A stretch of DNA of 64,000 nt. Origin: Streptosporangium sp. NBC_01755. Its GTDB lineage: Bacteria; Actinomycetota; Actinomycetes; Streptosporangiales; Streptosporangiaceae. The DNA lies in contig NZ_CP109131.1 in assembly GCF_035917995.1 (NCBI RefSeq), positions 5,084,001-5,148,000 of the forward strand, in the 5' to 3' direction. Within the stretch, counting starts at the first letter, position 1; the number at the start of each line of letters is the position of its first letter. The position numbers and the translations under genes are program-made. The notes below the pieces were generated by a model. That model worked only from the letters and a program-made list of their open reading frames with translations, was not told where the DNA came from and did no database searches. Positions 21,142 through 57,321 of this stretch are shown piece by piece.

Positions 21142-23217
21142 GTGAGCGACACCACCGAACTCCTCTCCGACGTCACCGGCACGGCGCCGGCGTCCGGCGA
21201 CACCCCCACCCGCCCAGCGGCCAAGCCGCGCCGTCGCTCCGGCACCGGCCTGTCCGCCATGGTGCTGCCCGAGCTGCAGGCCATGGCCTCCGGGCTGGGC
21301 ATCAGCGGGACCGGGCGGATGCGCAAGAGCCAGCTCATCGCGGCCATCCAGGAGAAGCAGGGCGTCTCCACCGAGAGTGCCCAGGCTTCCGTCACCGTCA
21401 AGGAGACTCCGGCCGCAGCCGTCCCCGCACCCGCAGCCGAGCCGGCCGTCGAGCGTCCGGCGCGCACCCGCAGGGAACGTTCCCGCCCCGTCGTGGCCGC
21501 CGAGCCCGTCGTGGAGCAGGCGCCCCCCGCTCCCGAGCCCGTGGCCGCCGTCGTCGCGCCCGAGCCCGTCGTGGAGCAGCAGACCATCGACGCCGCCCCG
21601 GCCGAGGGCCGTGGCGAGCGTGGTGAGAGCCGTCGCGAGCGTGGCGAGCGCCGCGGCCGTGGCGAGCGCGGCGAGCGCACCAATGACCGCCGCGAGCGTG
21701 GCGACCAGCGTGCCGACAACCGCGGCGACGGCCGCACCGACTCCCGCGCCGCCGACGCCGGTCAGAGCCGTGGCGAGCGGATCAACGACCGCGGCGACCG
21801 CGTCACTGACCGTGGTGAGCGCGGTGACCGTGTCACTGACCGTGGTGAGCGCGGTGACCGTGTCACTGACCGTGGTGAGCGCGGTGACCGTGTCACTGAC
21901 CGTGGTGAGCGCGGCGACCGTGGTGACCGCGGCCCGCAGAACCGGGGGCCGCAGGACCGCACCGACCAGCACGGTGTGGGCGACGACGACGACCGTCGCG
22001 GCCGTCGCGGCCGGTTCCGCGAGCGTAACCGCCGTGGCCGCGACCGCTTCGACAGCAACGAGCCCGTGGTGGGCGACGACGACGTCCTGATCCCGATCGC
22101 CGGAATCCTCGACATCCTCGACAACTACGCGTTCGTCAGGACCAGCGGTTATCTGCCGGGTTCCAACGACGTCTATGTCTCGCTGGCCCAGATCCGCCGC
22201 AACGGCCTGCGCAAGGGCGACGTCGTCACCGGTGCCGTCCGCCAGCCCCGCGACGGCGAGCGCCGTGAGAAGTTCAACGCGCTCGTCCGTCTGGACACGG
22301 TCAACGGCATGGACCCGGAGCAGGCGCGGCAGCGCCCCGATTTCAATAAGCTCGTCCCGCTCTACCCGCAGGAGCGCCTGCGCCTGGAGACCGAGCCGAA
22401 CATCCTGACCACCCGGATCATCGACATGGTGGCGCCGATCGGCAAGGGCCAGCGTGGTCTCATCGTCTCCCCGCCCAAGGCGGGCAAGACGATGGTGCTT
22501 CAGGCGATCGCCAACGCGATCACTCACAACAACCCCGAGTGCCACCTGATGGTCGTCCTGGTGGACGAGCGTCCGGAAGAGGTCACCGACATGCAGCGGT
22601 CGGTGAAGGGCGAGGTCATCCACTCGACCTTCGACCGCCCGGCCGAGGACCACACCACGGTCGCGGAGCTCGCCATCGAGCGCGCCAAGCGCCTGGTGGA
22701 GCTGGGCCACGACGTGGTCGTGCTGCTCGACTCGATCACCCGTCTGGGTCGCGCCTACAACCTGGCGGCCCCGGCGTCCGGCCGCATCCTGTCCGGTGGT
22801 GTCGACTCCACCGCGCTCTACCCGCCGAAGCGTTTCTTCGGCGCCGCCCGCAACATCGAGAACGGCGGCTCGCTGACGATCCTCGCCACCGCGCTGGTCG
22901 AGACCGGTTCCAAGATGGACGAGGTCATCTTCGAGGAGTTCAAGGGCACGGGCAACCTGGAGCTCAAGCTCAACCGGCAACTTGCCGACAAGCGGATCTT
23001 CCCCGCGGTGGACGTCGACGCGTCCGGCACCCGCAAGGAGGAGATCCTCATGGGCAAGGACGAGCTCCAGATCATCTGGAAGCTCCGCCGCGTGCTGCAC
23101 GCCCTTGACATGCAGCAGGCTCTCGAACTTCTCCTGGAGAAGATGAGAGAGACCAAGTCCAACGCGGAGTTCCTGCTCCAGGTGCAGAAGACGACCGTCA
23201 GCTCTGAGCGCGACTGA
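21142..23217 (+). CDS. rho: Transcription termination factor Rho (long actinobacterial form)
   Basis: Hexameric RNA-dependent ATPase that ends transcription at Rho-dependent sites. It has 691 residues against about 420 in E. coli. The Rho_N helical domain ([24 protein letters not shown] in part) is at about 35-80. An Arg/Asp/Gly/Glu-rich, disordered insert typical of high-GC Gram-positives occupies about 95-310, followed by the cold-shock-like RNA-binding domain ([20 protein letters not shown]) and the motor domain with Walker A PPKAGKTM (444-451), Walker [11 protein letters not shown] and the R-loop [15 protein letters not shown]. The insert contains a 30-bp tandem repeat. The GTG start follows GGGAAGGAC. 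A 12-bp hairpin terminator follows the gene. Confidence 0.95.
21795..21914 (+). repeat. 30-bp tandem repeat coding [10 protein letters not shown]
   Basis: About four copies within the Rho insert, the inner ones identical at the DNA level, adding ten charged residues each. Near-perfect identity suggests recent expansion. Confidence 0.9.
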
Positions 23218-28811: not shown

Positions 28812-31097
28812 ATGGGCAAGTTCGAAGGAATGGACCCCAAGCTGGTCCGCGACCTGCTGTCCGAGGTACGGCGGGCGGCTGATCAGATGCGGAACGCCGA
28901 GGGCAAGGTCACCCAGCTGATGAGCGGGGCCGGCCTGTCCTCGCAGTCGACCCACAGGCCCGTCCAGATCGCCGACGCGTGCGACGTGATGGTCCGTGAC
29001 GTCTCCGCTCGTGTGGCGTTGCTGGAGAAGAAGATCAACCAGAACGTGACGGCACCTCCCGCCGAGCCGAGGGCCGGGGACACGAAGCCTGACAGCGGTT
29101 CGGCGGGCGACGGCGCGAAGCCCGAGACCGGTGCGGCGGGCGATGACGCGAAGCCCGAGACCCCGAAGGCCGACGGTCTCAAACCGGCGGTCGGAGCGGA
29201 CGACAAGCCCCGTGTCGGTGATCAGTCCGCCGAGAGCACACAGCGTGACGATCCGAAGGACTCGCCCAAGCCCGAGACGGGTTCGAAGGGTGACGTGGCC
29301 AAGCCCGAGACCCCGAAGGCCGACGAGGCCAAGCCCGAGACCGGTTCGAAGGGCGACGAGACCTCCCCACGGGACGGTTCGAAGGAGACGCCGAAGCCGG
29401 AGACGTCCGGAGCCGACGAGCGGAAGCCGGAAACGGGTTCGAAGGGTGACGAGACCTCCCCACGCGGGGAGGACACCCCCAAGGAGAGCGTCAAGCCGGT
29501 TGACACCGCACCACGCGAGGCTCCGAAGCCGGATGCCATGCCGGAGGCGCCGAGAGCCGACGACACGCCACGTGAGGCCCCGAAGGCTGATCCCACGCCT
29601 GTGCCGGAGGCTCCGAAGCCGGATGCCATGCCGGAGGCGCCGAGAGCCGACGACACGCCACGTGAGGCCCCGAAGGCTGATCCCACGCCTGTGCCGGAGG
29701 CTCCGAAGCCGGATGCCATGCCGGAGGCGCCGAGAGCCGACGACACGCCACGTGAGGCCCCGAAGGCTGATCCCACGCCGGAGGCGCCCAGGGCTGAGGG
29801 GGCGCGGCCGGAGACGCCGAAGGTCGAGGATTTGAAACCCGCGGTTCCGGGGCCCGGTGAGGGGCCTCAGGACGGAGGGCGGCCGGTTGACGGCGTGCCA
29901 CGCGAGACGCCCGTCCCTGAGGCTCCCAGCCCGGATGCCGCCCCCGTGCCGGAGGTGCCGCAGGGGGATTCCACACCCGCGCCGGAGACGCCCAGAAGCG
30001 ATGACGCGCGGCCGGAGATCGTCAATGTGAACGACACGATGCCGGGTGGGGAGGATTCCGACGCCAAGGGTGACTCCGGTTCCAAGGGCGATGAGACGAC
30101 GCCGCGTGGGGATGGCTCCGTGGGTGACACGCCGGTGAACGATCCCGACGCCAAGGGTGACTCCGGTTCCAAGGGCGATGAGCGCTCGCCCAGGCAGGAG
30201 AGCGGCACGTCCGGCAACGACATCCTCGACAGTTCCAAGAAGGACCATCCCGACGACATCGACCAGAGCGGCGATCACAGGGCCAGGGTCGTGGAGGTCG
30301 ACGGCGTGCAGGTGCTCCAGATCCCGCTCGACTCGCCCACGGCGGCCGAGGTCGACGAGCTGCTGAAGAACATCGAGGACATCCCGCCGCTGGAGATGCC
30401 GGGGGTCGACAACGTCTCCGCCACGGCGGGGCAGCCAGGCTGGGTCGAGCCGCATGGCCCGCTCGATTCGGCCAAGCCCGACTATCCGCTCCTCGACACC
30501 GCGGGACCGACCACCGACCAGACCGTCCAGCCGCCGGGCACGGGTGGTGACGCCACTCCCCAGCCCGCGGGCACGGCCTCCGGTGAGGCGGCCGTTCGGC
30601 CGCCGGCCACGACCTCCGCTGAGCCCGCCGTCCAGACGGCGGGTACGACGACCTCCGGTGAGGCGGCCTCGCAGCCCGCTGTGGCGCCGCGAGGAGACGT
30701 CGGGATGCCATCCATCGGCGACGCGGTCTTCAGCGAGGCGCGAGGGGCGGAGGATGCCGCCGGGGGCGCGGGGCAGGCGGCGGGGGTGGCTCCCGGGGGT
30801 GTGGCCGCCCCACCGGATGGGGGTCCGGATGAGGGCTCGGTCGCCCGGTGGGCGGGCGACGGCAGCGACGTCGTCACCGCGGAGGCGGGTCCCCTCGATC
30901 TGGACGCCCTCAGAACGCTCGCCGACAACGCCAGGGAGATCGAACCGCTGGAGATGCCCGGCGTGCAGGTGCCGGATGGGGAGACCTGGGGCAAGGGAGC
31001 CTGGGCGCCCATGGACATCGGGCCCGACGGGCCGGCGGGCGACGTGGAGCCGGGAAATCCGCTGCGGCCGATCCCGCCCCCCGGAGGCGGGCAGTGA
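28812..31097 (+). CDS. Type VII-secretion-like helical protein with repeat-rich tail
   Basis: A 761-residue protein. The first 80 residues (MGKFEGMDPKLVRDLLSEV, then ADQMRNAEGKVTQLMSGAGL and ARVALLEKKINQN) form a helical unit reminiscent of WXG100/ESX-type N-termini. Residues about 85-480 are a Pro/Lys/Asp/Glu/Thr-rich, presumably disordered stretch with KPETGSKGDE-like repeats and an exact 90-bp tandem repeat. The C-terminal part carries two related segments: DIPPLEMPGV...GWVEPHGPLD and EIEPLEMPGV...GAWAPMDIGPDGP. No signal peptide or membrane helix. The ATG at 28812 follows GGGAGACG. The next gene codes a small WXG-like protein; export as a pair is an inference. Function unknown. Confidence 0.6.
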   Translation: MGKFEGMDPKLVRDLLSEVRRAADQMRNAEGKVTQLMSGAGLSSQSTHRPVQIADACDVMVRDVSARVALLEKKINQNVTAPPAEPRAGDTKPDSGSAGDGAKPETGAAGDDAKPETPKADGLKPAVGADDKPRVGDQSAESTQRDDPKDSPKPETGSKGDVAKPETPKADEAKPETGSKGDETSPRDGSKETPKPETSGADERKPETGSKGDETSPRGEDTPKESVKPVDTAPREAPKPDAMPEAPRADDTPREAPKADPTPVPEAPKPDAMPEAPRADDTPREAPKADPTPVPEAPKPDAMPEAPRADDTPREAPKADPTPEAPRAEGARPETPKVEDLKPAVPGPGEGPQDGGRPVDGVPRETPVPEAPSPDAAPVPEVPQGDSTPAPETPRSDDARPEIVNVNDTMPGGEDSDAKGDSGSKGDETTPRGDGSVGDTPVNDPDAKGDSGSKGDERSPRQESGTSGNDILDSSKKDHPDDIDQSGDHRARVVEVDGVQVLQIPLDSPTAAEVDELLKNIEDIPPLEMPGVDNVSATAGQPGWVEPHGPLDSAKPDYPLLDTAGPTTDQTVQPPGTGGDATPQPAGTASGEAAVRPPATTSAEPAVQTAGTTTSGEAASQPAVAPRGDVGMPSIGDAVFSEARGAEDAAGGAGQAAGVAPGGVAAPPDGGPDEGSVARWAGDGSDVVTAEAGPLDLDALRTLADNAREIEPLEMPGVQVPDGETWGKGAWAPMDIGPDGPAGDVEPGNPLRPIPPPGGGQ
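29521..29779 (+). repeat. 90-bp exact tandem repeat inside the type VII-like gene
   Basis: Units start at 29521, 29611 and 29701 (third incomplete). Each codes 30 residues of the pattern PKPDAMPEAPRADDTPREAP plus KADPTPVPEA. The copies appear identical at DNA level, implying recent duplication. Confidence 0.95.
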
Positions 31098-54340: not shown

Positions 54341-55180
54341 GTGGAAGCGGGGGTGCCAGATGGGGGCTCCGGGAATACGGTGGACGGCGTGCAGTTGTAC
54401 ACGCGATCGGCTGGAGAGGGGCTTCCGGTCGTCCTCCTTCACGCGTTCCCCCTGTCGTCGGCCATGTGGCTGGCCCAGCGCGAGGGCCTGGCCGCGGTCT
54501 GCAAGGTCATCACTCCCGACCTGCGCGGCTTCGGTGGCTCGCTGCTGGGCGGGGACGATCCCTCCCTCGACGTGATGGCCGACGACGTCGTGCGCCTGCT
54601 GGACAGCGAGGGCGTCGACCGCGCGGTCGTCGGCGGCCTGTCCATGGGCGGCTACGTGACGATGGCCCTGTGCCGCCGCCACCCCGACCGGCTGCTGGGG
54701 GTGATCCTCGCCGACACGAAGGCGGGCGCCGACCCGCAGGCCGCGAGATCCAACCGCGAGCGGATCGCCGCCGCGGTGCTTCGGGAGGGCACGTCCGTCC
54801 TGCTGAAGGAGCTGCTGCCGGGGCTGGTCGGGCAGACCACGGTGCGGAGCAGGGCGATGGTGTTCGGCCGGGTACGGGGGCTGGTCCAGTCGGCTCCGCC
54901 GACGGCCGCGGCCTGGGCGCAACGGGCCATGGCCGCCCGTCCCGACTCCTTCGACACGCTGCGGGCGATCAAGACACCCGTCCTGGTGATCGTGGGCGAG
55001 GAGGACGAGATCACCCCGCCGGCGGAAGCGGGCGCGATGGTCGAGGCGGTGCCCGACGGGCGGCTGGCCGTCATCGAGAAGGCCGGCCACCTCAGCGCGA
55101 TCGAGCAGCCCGAGGCGTTCAACCGGGCGGTGTCGGACTTCATTGCCGAGCTTGCCGGGGGATCACCACCTCGCGGATGA
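54341..55180 (+). CDS. Alpha/beta hydrolase (second)
   Basis: A 279-residue protein of the epoxide-hydrolase/haloperoxidase-like group: VVLLHAFPLSSAMW (oxyanion loop), DLRGFGGS, nucleophile elbow GGLSMGGYVT, acid in VIVGEEDEITPP and histidine EKAGHLSAIEQP. The GTG at 54341 coincides with a predicted transcription start; GTG 54380, giving VDGVQLYTRSAGEG, is a credible alternative because homologues begin about there. Its 3' end overlaps the remnant of a convergent transporter gene by 41 bases. Confidence 0.8.
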   Translation: MEAGVPDGGSGNTVDGVQLYTRSAGEGLPVVLLHAFPLSSAMWLAQREGLAAVCKVITPDLRGFGGSLLGGDDPSLDVMADDVVRLLDSEGVDRAVVGGLSMGGYVTMALCRRHPDRLLGVILADTKAGADPQAARSNRERIAAAVLREGTSVLLKELLPGLVGQTTVRSRAMVFGRVRGLVQSAPPTAAAWAQRAMAARPDSFDTLRAIKTPVLVIVGEEDEITPPAEAGAMVEAVPDGRLAVIEKAGHLSAIEQPEAFNRAVSDFIAELAGGSPPRG

Positions 55181-55660
55181 GCAGGGCGATCGCCGCGTCC
55201 ACCGCACCGCCCGTCAGCGCACCGCCCGTCAGCGCGGCGGTGACGGTGCGGGAATGCCCGTCAGCGCGGCGGTGACGGTGCGGGAATGCCCGTCAGCGCG
55301 GCGGTGACGGTGCGGGAATGCCCGTCAGCGCGGCGGTGACGGTGCGGGAATGCCCGTCAGCGCGGCGGTGACGGTGCGGGAATGCCCGTCAGCGCGGCGG
55401 TGACGGTGCGGGAATGCCCGTCAGCGCGGCGGTGACGGTGCGGGAATGCCCGTCAGCGCGGCGGTGACGGTGCGGGAATGCCCGTCAGCGCGGCGGTGAC
55501 GGTGCGGGAATGCCCGTCAGCGCGGCGGTGACGGTGCGGGAATGCCCGTCAGCGCGCCGCCGAACAGCGTGGCGATGACGGTGACCGCCGGGGTCACGTC
55601 CACCGAGTGCCTCATCACCCGGGGATGGATCAGGTAGTTCTCGACGTACGGGACACCGGC
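55140..55660 (-). pseudogene. AI-2E family transporter remnant split by a minisatellite
   Basis: Two pieces of the C-terminus of an AI-2E/PerM-type transporter are readable on the minus strand. The first, about 55650 to 55550, reads YVENYLIHPRVMRHSVDVTP and VTVIATLFGGALTGI. The second, 55223 to the TGA at 55140, reads GGAVDAAIALLIREVVIPRQ followed by ARQ. Between them lie ten 32-bp repeats that shift frame and introduce stops. The N-terminal 200-300 residues are absent upstream. The sequence is therefore a doubly damaged gene. Family recognition comes from the VENYLIHPRVM and DVTPAVTVIA signatures. Confidence 0.7.
55224..55556. repeat. 32-bp tandem minisatellite, 10 full copies
   Basis: Identical 32-bp units begin every 32 bases from 55224 to 55512, with a partial unit at 55544-55556; the core includes GCCCGTCAGCGCGGCGGTGA. 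There are no spacers, so it is not a CRISPR. The unit derives from the transporter's own codons for GALTGIP. 32 is not a multiple of three, so each copy changes frame. Confidence 0.97.
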
Positions 55661-55882
55661 GGGTGCTGCGCGCGGATCGGGCCCCCGGAGGGCGGGACCG
55701 GCTCCTGACTCGGGGCGGGAGCCCCAGGGTCGTCGGACACCGGTGACGCTTCGGGGACGACCGCTCCTGACTGTGGGTAAGGGGGTAGGTAAGCGGGGCG
55801 GTAGACGGGAAGAAAGCCTGGTGACCGTGAAGGTCGCCAGGCTCTCGACAGCCGTCGTCAACGCCCCGGAGTCAGCGGCTGC

Positions 55883-57163
55883 CTATTCCTGCCACCACTC
55901 CGCGTCGTCGTCCTTCTCCGCTCTGGCGGGAGTCGGAACCGGCTTCTCGGCGCCGTTGGTGGCGGCGGGGATGGCCGGCTTCGGCGGGGCCGCGGCGATC
56001 GCGGGCTCCGGGTCGGCGGCCGGGAGCGGCGCGCCACCGAGCAGCTGGCGCAGCTGGGCGAGGTGGCTGGTGATGCTGTCGCGCTGGCGGGTCAGTTCGT
56101 CGACCTGGCGCTGGGCGACGGAGCGGCTCCGCTCGGACTCCGACTTGGCCTCGGAGACGATGGACTCGGCGCTCGACTTGGCCTCGGACACGACCTGGTC
56201 GGCGTTCTTACGCGCGTTGGCCAGCAGCTGCTTGGCGTGCGTGTCGGCCTCACGGCGGGTCTGCTCGGCCTGCTGGGTGGCCTTGGTGGCGCGCTGCTCG
56301 GCGGTGGCCGCACGCTGCTCGGCCTCGGCGACCAGCTTCTGGGTGGCGGCCTGCGCCGTGGCGTGGCGCTCGGCCTCCTGGCGCTCGGCCTCCTCGCGCC
56401 GGGCGGCGAGCTGGATCTCGAACTCCGCCTCGTCCTGGGCCCGCTTGGCCTCGGACTCCTCAAGCACCCGCTGGGCCTGGGCGCGCATCTCGTCGGCCTG
56501 GCGCTTGGCGGTGGTGAGGACCTCATCGCGCTCACGCTTGGTCGAGGCGCGCAGCTGGGCCACCTCGCGCTCGGTGGTGGTGCGCAGCTTGGCGATCTCG
56601 CGCTCGGCGTCGGCGCGCTTCTCGGCCACCTCGTGGTCGGCGGTGGCCCGCAGCTTGGAGACCTCGCGCTCGGTGGTGGCGGTCAGCTCGTCGGCCTCGC
56701 GGCGGGCGGTCGAGCGGATCTCCTCGGCCTCGCGCTCCGCGGTGGTGCGCATCTCGTCGACCTCGCGGGTGGCGAGGGCGCGCTTCTCCGCGGCCTCGTT
56801 CTCAGCGGCGGCGCGCAGGTCGGCGGCCTCGACCTTGGACGCCGCCTTGATCTCGTTCGCCTCGGACCTGGCTGCCTGGACCAGTTCGGTGGCCTGCTCC
56901 TCCGCCAGGCGGAGCAGTTGCTCGATCCGGGCGCCGAGGCCGGAGTAGGTCGGACGCTCCTGCTCCTGAAGCTGGCGTTGGGAGTCGGACAGATCCCGCT
57001 GCAGGCCCTGAACCTGCTCACGGGACTGCCGAAGCTCACCGTCGATTTGCTTCAGATGGTCGTGGACCTGGTGCCGGTCATAGCCACGGAGCACCACGTC
57101 GAATTCCCGAGCGGGGGCGTCTTCAAAGAAATTGTTGAGCTGGGCGTCGATGTCGGACTGCAT
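55883..57163 (-). CDS. FilP/Scy-type coiled-coil protein with DivIVA-like start
   Basis: A 426-residue protein. The N-terminal DivIVA-like segment is FDVVLRGYDRHQVHDHLKQI; after a helix comes PTYSGLGARIEQLLRLAEEQA, which closely matches Streptomyces FilP, then about 300 residues of Ala/Glu/Arg coiled coil, QRDSITSHLAQLRQLLGG, and a Pro-rich tail. FilP and Scy organise the hyphal tip and an intermediate-filament-like network, and are coded beside the methylmalonyl-CoA epimerase in Streptomyces, as here. Only one such gene exists here, with a length between FilP and Scy. ATG 57163 is chosen by the conserved start; ATG 57223 is an alternative. Confidence 0.82.
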   Translation of the reverse strand: MQSDIDAQLNNFFEDAPAREFDVVLRGYDRHQVHDHLKQIDGELRQSREQVQGLQRDLSDSQRQLQEQERPTYSGLGARIEQLLRLAEEQATELVQAARSEANEIKAASKVEAADLRAAAENEAAEKRALATREVDEMRTTAEREAEEIRSTARREADELTATTEREVSKLRATADHEVAEKRADAEREIAKLRTTTEREVAQLRASTKRERDEVLTTAKRQADEMRAQAQRVLEESEAKRAQDEAEFEIQLAARREEAERQEAERHATAQAATQKLVAEAEQRAATAEQRATKATQQAEQTRREADTHAKQLLANARKNADQVVSEAKSSAESIVSEAKSESERSRSVAQRQVDELTRQRDSITSHLAQLRQLLGGAPLPAADPEPAIAAAPPKPAIPAATNGAEKPVPTPARAEKDDDAEWWQE

Positions 57164-57321
57164 GGAGGCTCGATCCTGGGTTGTCGAGACGGCTACACGG
57201 GCCGGACGGGGGGTTTCAGGCATCCGAAGCGGGAGCCGGGGCGGGATCCACGTCCGGTGGTACGCCAGCGTACTCCGCCGTTGCCGAGTTGGCGGTCTCG
57301 TCCGACTTTATGCGCGACTTG

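Follow-up and report, generated by a model that had tools for sequence, protein, structure and literature searches.

An exact 32-bp array between two convergent genes

A short interval between two convergent genes of Streptosporangium sp. NBC_01755 holds ten identical copies of a 32-bp unit, and this array is most likely a young minisatellite that grew by slippage inside the pseudogene of an AI-2E transporter. It was found in a stretch of 64,000 nucleotides, here called the window, of a genome that consists of one contig of 8,149,094 bases with 99.47% completeness. The array spans positions 55224 to 55556 (no strand assigned), with ten exact units (55224-55543; copy number as given by the assembly) followed by 13 bp of an eleventh (55544-55556). 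Tandem Repeats Finder (TRF) returned a period of 32, 10.4 copies, 100% match, no indels and a score of 666. Searching the window with the unit pattern and allowing up to three mismatches gave ten matches, all of them exact and all within 55224-55543, and none in 100 dinucleotide shuffles. The units are arranged head-to-tail and abut directly, with no spacers between them. The ten identical units claimed in the initial annotation are thus exact and contiguous by both methods, the partial eleventh being an addition, and its observation that 32 is not divisible by three is correct. A 15-bp tandem duplication of 2.2 copies (GALTG GALTG; 55203-55235, no strand assigned, from TRF) lies at the edge of the array and overlaps its end.

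When 345 genomes of the order were searched with up to three mismatches allowed, the window's own was the one genome to contain the unit (1 of 60 in a smaller set), and the same threshold disclosed no second site in that genome beyond the ten array copies. The 1.264 Mb of this genome that were examined hold 82 exact arrays with a period of 10-100, and this one leads them in copy number with ten. TRF analysis of 80 neighbour loci (728,675 bases) yielded five arrays with a period of at least 15, at least four copies and 90% match, the maximum being 7.6 copies.

On its upstream side the transporter remnant is bordered by the gene for a DivIVA-domain protein (55883-57223, minus strand; PF05103, E 7.8e-10), and its convergent neighbour is an alpha/beta hydrolase gene (54341-55180, plus strand; PF00561, E 8.6e-26) whose stop codon lies at 55178-55180. 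The gap of about 700 bp between these two genes in the window contains no complete gene. Comparison with a plasmid collection produced matches to seven records, a chromosome-sized Nonomuraea (through the DivIVA-domain gene) and six Streptomyces (short hydrolase matches). Direct repeats of about 30 bp might in principle represent a dispersed mobile repeat of the REP kind, the remnant of a CRISPR array, or plasmid iterons; we consider this extremely improbable. The CRISPR assignment was rejected on the absence of unique spacers between abutting units, and the REP-like one on the single genomic location at up to three mismatches. Furthermore, the DivIVA-domain and hydrolase genes are neither cas nor plasmid replication genes, and the local gene seems to have supplied part of the unit (see below).

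Remnant of an AI-2E transporter gene

Translated in the gene sense (minus strand), the DNA reads VENYLIHPRVMRHSVDVTPAVTVIATLFGGALTG before the array and GGAVDAAIALLIREVVIPRQAR after it. The first piece (55544-55645, minus strand) comprises 34 codons (VENYLIHP...GGALTG), its last 13 bases being the partial eleventh unit, and shows 84-92% DNA identity to the genes that congeners carry at the same place. Submitted as 38 amino acids, it matched the Pfam family PF01594 (AI-2E_transport) over profile positions 269-303 of 327, with E = 3.5e-5 and 23.6 bits, a score below the Pfam cut-off of 34.3. The C-terminal piece ending GGAVDAAIALLIREVVIPRQAR (55140-55223, minus strand) was identified by sequence comparison with relatives; its 22 recognisable amino acids alone gave no Pfam hit. 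Where this piece ends, it runs into the last codons of the hydrolase gene on the other strand, and a similar tail-to-tail overlap is present at L011, a related locus with an intact homologue of 459 amino acids (PF01594, E = 8.2e-60). Both pieces align to the L011 protein. By sequence and position the remnant is homologous to an AI-2E gene, the Pfam match being below cut-off. The origin proposed for the two pieces, an AI-2E transporter gene, agrees with this match, with the L011 alignment and with the congener DNA identity; that the array separates two C-terminal pieces of the transporter follows from the same alignment.

The two flanking pieces correspond to the C-terminal end of the PF01594 family; unlike its members, the window copy lacks a core of about 365 codons and is a pseudogene, not a transporter. 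A full-length permease with its transmembrane core is not present, the sequence retaining a leader fragment and the last part of the PF01594 profile. The fragment, a probable remnant of the Pro/Ala-rich leader at about 55700-55780 (minus strand), was recognised by alignment with L011 and with a second related locus, L036. It covers some 30 codons, is non-membrane, and in the window copy its frame (reading PEASPVSDDP in L011) differs from that of the tail. The gene had been described as having lost its N-terminus, and this needs adjustment: the transmembrane core is gone, and the leader codons still seem to be there.

The 34-codon tail was compared with 12 Streptosporangium loci hand-picked from those with an intact gene. 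Its pN/pS was 1.14 against L036 and 1.32 against L011, and 0.16 was obtained from pooled pairs of the 12 intact relatives. Against the other ten of the twelve the ratio ranged from 0.28 to 0.76, synonymous changes accumulating there. Relative to the three closest relatives, the tail has undergone six to seven nonsynonymous and two to three synonymous changes (two synonymous against L036 and L011). These numbers are small, but they agree with a tail that evolves like a pseudogene under relaxed constraint.

Eighty related loci were collected through their DivIVA-domain neighbour. An intact AI-2E gene follows the DivIVA-domain gene in 46 of them (42 with the hydrolase also in view, four without), and in one it is split into two frames. 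At 25 loci, Streptosporangium amethystogenes included, protein search detected no AI-2E gene ahead of a hydrolase that is itself visible; neither gene is shown at the remaining eight. The S. amethystogenes remnant was missed by protein search and is detectable only by DNA comparison. The AI-2E gene at this position thus seems to be absent repeatedly within the family. The locus with the gene in two frames belongs to Nonomuraea sp. MG754425 and may represent a decaying copy or a sequencing error. Two further AI-2E relatives, 28-30% identical to the L011 gene, are encoded elsewhere in the window's genome. One of them, a distant relative at G000:C1:891235-892464, has two TGA stops in the matched frame; it may be another pseudogene, or the alignment may overrun the end of the gene.

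Reading frames and the order of events

Each of the six frames of the array contains three to four stops. No frame is open across the array on either strand, the longest open stretch in any frame being 31 codons, and a coding role for the array was rejected on this basis. Copy numbers from 0 to 30 (31 in total) were modelled. All those from 1 to 30 close the tail frame after 42 codons, because one whole unit already carries a stop, and zero copies alone leave the tail open; the core is missing whatever the copy number. The suggestion that certain copy numbers might restore the frame consequently finds no support among those modelled, save for the array-free state. A frame switch, as in phase-variable (contingency) genes, was likewise dismissed, since copy numbers 1-30 never reopen the tail and the core is absent anyway.

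S. amethystogenes (locus L029) is the nearest relative found, with a DivIVA-domain protein 98% identical to that of the window. It carries no array, and the transporter core missing from the window is missing here too. In this species an interval of 243 bp separates the two neighbour genes; it consists, in order, of the DivIVA end, part of the intergenic stretch, CCCGCCGATGTCCCGTACG, a few disturbed bases and the terminal part of the transporter gene. At the matching place the window has CCCGCCGGTGTCCCGTACG, adjoining VENYLIHP, and intact L011 has more than 1 kb of transporter core where the other two have the junction. The junction-side sequence common to S. amethystogenes and the window reads CCCGCCG(A/G)TGTCCCGTACG. 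Counted by eye, 18 of the 19 nt beside the core-deletion junction (55645-55663, minus strand) are identical between the two; when the comparison is extended beyond these 19 nt, about 28 of 35 are. A short-word search of the junction stretch against five intact relatives gave weak matches among those listed, the best (E 0.03) lying upstream of the DivIVA-domain gene. As judged from the sequences, a single core deletion was probably inherited by both species; two independent deletions are conceivable.

Loss of the core is read as older than the array because S. amethystogenes, free of the array, has the same core gap and junction sequence, because leader and tail are out of frame with each other, and because constraint on the tail is relaxed. 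The same three lines of evidence speak against the view, taken in the initial annotation, that the gene had been killed by expansion of the repeat. One feature of the comparison tempers the argument. S. amethystogenes has its own deletion over the array site (63 nt relative to L011, counted by eye), so that an older array could have been lost there. With that site deleted, support for the order in which the core went first and the array came later is drawn from the junction sequence common to both species, from the mismatch between the frames and from the sameness of the units.

The opposite order, in which a working gene was broken by the array and lost its core only later, appears unlikely to us. 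It draws on the model in which removing the array (copy number 0) leaves the tail uninterrupted, so that the array did break the tail frame, and on the loss of the array's place from S. amethystogenes, which therefore provides no direct array-free site. It has to contend with an array-free relative that lacks the same core and has the same junction-side sequence, with a tail whose open frame differs from that of the leader, and with the decay of the tail sequence itself. In a separate observation, the S. amethystogenes remnant (L029 5493-5502) has AGTTCTCGAC where the window has the reverse complement GTCGAGAACT, a difference possibly due to a 10-nt inversion or template switch.

Origin and age of the repeat unit

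The array is situated at the GAL-x-G motif of the transporter gene. In L011 the motif has the form GGGGCGCTGATGGGC-ATCGTC-GGCGCGCTGCTGGCC, with an imperfect repeat built in, and in the window every unit has copies of GCGCTGACGGGC at its two edges. Within the unit, the 18 nt ACCGTCACCGCCGCGCTG agree at 17 of 18 positions with the upstream part of the motif in L011 and L036, and at 16 of 18 with the window's own flank. A 17/18 match was reached by none of 2000 mononucleotide shuffles of the 220-nt target, a count that is flattering in that the 18-nt part was picked after the resemblance had been seen. The initial annotation had derived the unit from the codons for GALTGIP. In favour of this are the site at GAL-x-G and the 18 of 32 bases that match two intact relatives at 17 of 18 positions. 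Taken whole, the unit has the look of a composite that slippage put together locally before it was multiplied.

In the two flanking genes, 11 of 180 and 19 of 236 four-fold sites differ from S. amethystogenes. A single lineage should thus have accumulated about 11 substitutions per 320 bp after the two species separated (half of approximately 7%). The ten units are identical despite these expected changes; hence, the array is younger than the split from S. amethystogenes or has recently been homogenised. The recent birth previously claimed for it accords with this estimate.

These data suggest a scheme for the formation of the array. The common ancestor with S. amethystogenes would have lost most of the AI-2E gene, leaving an out-of-frame leader and the C-terminal tail, as the junction sequence implies. 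With selection lifted, the tail would have gathered the amino-acid changes seen in its few codons, along with small rearrangements. At the GAL-x-G motif, the short direct copies of GCGCTGACGGGC could then have allowed strand mispairing during replication, whereby a composite 32-nt segment, including the 18 nt that match the upstream part of the gene (17/18), was duplicated and eventually amplified to ten copies. Amplification might have proceeded by further slippage or by unequal exchange. We infer slippage as the route by which the array grew. Selection presumably did not remove the array, since the convergent intergenic stretch around it is dead.

A hairpin in one strand of the unit, judging from its predicted energy, may have aided amplification. 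One strand of a single unit folds with -10.4 kcal/mol, which 3 of 200 shuffles equalled; the other strand folds in an ordinary manner (45 of 200 shuffles as good, z -0.78). For three units, 0 of 200 and 7 of 200 shuffles fold as well on the two strands, in a test where shuffling also destroys the repeat. Each unit contains a 6-bp inverted repeat, CCGTCA-N9-TGACGG. An array with such features could function as DNA or RNA, either as an operator-like inverted repeat present ten times that binds or titrates a protein, or as a structural element between convergent genes. We regard this as very improbable. The inverted repeat, the strand that folds better than 197 of 200 shuffles and a copy number unsurpassed among the 82 exact arrays speak for it. 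Against it, a search at up to three mismatches found the unit neither in the other 344 genomes of the order nor elsewhere in its own, which gives no indication of a conserved site or a dispersed operator; the array lies in a pseudogene, and folding of the other strand of a single unit is unexceptional.

Comparison with known repeat classes

Bacterial minisatellites are defined by head-to-tail units of about 10-100 bp with high identity, and the array conforms to this description. It resembles the VNTR loci used in MLVA typing in the arrangement and identity of its units (period 32, 10.4 copies, 100%), and differs from them in that what preceded the array can be assigned to a segment of a named gene. 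Such loci also vary in copy number between strains; the genomes searched contained a single strain of this species, and S. amethystogenes has no array. The array is, then, a new example of a well-known class of feature, one whose origin is unusually easy to read. Minisatellites have been treated as one class of variable segment, with slippage during replication between short repeats invoked for part of such segments, and the palindromic units or REP elements of E. coli are given as 30-37 bp (PMC2884548). The 32-bp unit is similar to REP elements in length and in its potential for a small (predicted) hairpin; the differences are that the array occupies one genomic location and that some of the unit seems to come from the gene around it. 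No publication on the locus was present among the matches listed, at the level of titles and the start of abstracts, and the single match listed for 'Streptosporangium' with 'tandem repeat' was off topic.

Taken by itself the locus is an ordinary but clean case. The sequence reveals where a bacterial minisatellite arose, what probably supplied much of its unit and how old it can be at most. It also illustrates that frame-breaking units can grow where selection has already ceased.

Minisatellites across the genome

Exact arrays (period 10-100, at least two copies, at least 40 nt) were counted in 60 stretches of 20 kb (1.2 Mb) of the window's genome, an uneven sample with 25 of the 60 stretches in the first 2 Mb. 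There were 75 such arrays (62.5 per Mb), of which 33 had at least three copies (27.5 per Mb), and 20 of the 60 stretches had none. Four congeners (G003, G008, G004 and G015) were sampled at 0.4 Mb each; G008 is S. amethystogenes, a draft of 230 contigs sampled on five, and the other three are in one or two contigs. They yielded 10, 4, 13 and 8 exact arrays, respectively (21.9 per Mb pooled), with 2, 3, 2 and 1 having at least three copies (5.0 per Mb pooled). The ratios between the window's genome and the four congeners are 2.9 for all exact arrays (p = 7e-8) and 5.5 for those with at least three copies (p = 9e-7). By TRF (at least 95% match, no indels, at least three copies, period of at least 10) the counts were 32 against 2, 4, 1 and 5, corresponding to 26.7 per Mb here and a pooled 7.5 per Mb in the congeners, a ratio of 3.6. 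In the 80 mixed neighbour loci the densities were 16.5 and 9.6 per Mb for the two classes of exact arrays and 4.1 per Mb by TRF, so that for exact arrays the contrast with these loci is smaller.

Periods divisible by three account for 53 of the 75 exact arrays in the window's genome (p = 4e-11), for 7 of 10, 4 of 4, 11 of 13 and 7 of 8 in the congeners, and for 5 of 12 in the mixed loci. The excess in the window's genome argues that its arrays are real and have been filtered by selection in genes; the congeners lean the same way, the mixed loci less so. It bears in turn on whether the 32-bp array, or its copy number, is an assembly artefact. Exact arrays of 320 bp are readily miscounted in assemblies, and the copy number does rest on one. 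We nonetheless hold an artefact to be improbable, given a genome in one contig at the completeness cited above, a period bias in 60 other stretches that looks like selection acting on real arrays and is not what an assembler would generate, and a unit and flanks that provide a coherent derivation from the gene.

With the threshold lowered to 30 nt, 7 of 11 arrays in the window have an orthologous site in S. amethystogenes. Those at 29517, 49838 and 54228 are shorter there (by 1.93, 1.90 and 0.93 units), those at 21802 and 60026 are longer (by 1.2 and 1.67 units), the one at 56364 is equal, and the seventh is the 32-bp array, whose site is deleted. Because differences go both ways, growth has not been one-sided. 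Among the sampled arrays, taken from stretches that are not syntenic with S. amethystogenes, a site-by-site comparison found 2 orthologous sites out of 81, and 0 of 4 in the reverse direction. A search for a motif shared by the array units of the window's genome revealed modest hexamer excesses only. To our knowledge, most actinobacteria lack MutSL-type mismatch repair. Loss of NucS, of the exonuclease VII large subunit or of RuvC was considered as a cause of the excess and rejected: each family scores above its cut-off in all 16 Streptosporangium genomes searched, and in the window's own genome the matched stretch is free of stops.

The excess of minisatellites is a clue to a possible burst in this species and falls short of proving a mutator state. 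In a wider reading, tentative and on balance doubtful, tandem duplication would recently have surged across the whole genome in this lineage, with the 32-bp array as its most conspicuous outcome. A mutator state for 10-100 bp slippage, arising by some route other than loss of NucS, exonuclease VII or RuvC, would have turned many single-copy segments into exact minisatellites; these would persist in coding sequence if their period is divisible by three and grow longest where the gene was already dead. If the excess is confirmed, the species would offer a natural model for the control of slippage of 10-100 bp units in actinobacteria.

Longer repeats were also encountered. A 90-bp exact repeat of 2.9 copies occupies 29517-29779 of the window, and the corresponding S. 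amethystogenes site is about two units shorter. Large tandem repeats were seen in another stretch of the window's genome (L121, 3946-5270; 480-bp units, 2.8 copies) and in congener G003 (L180, 12715-14088; 345-bp units, 3.9 copies).
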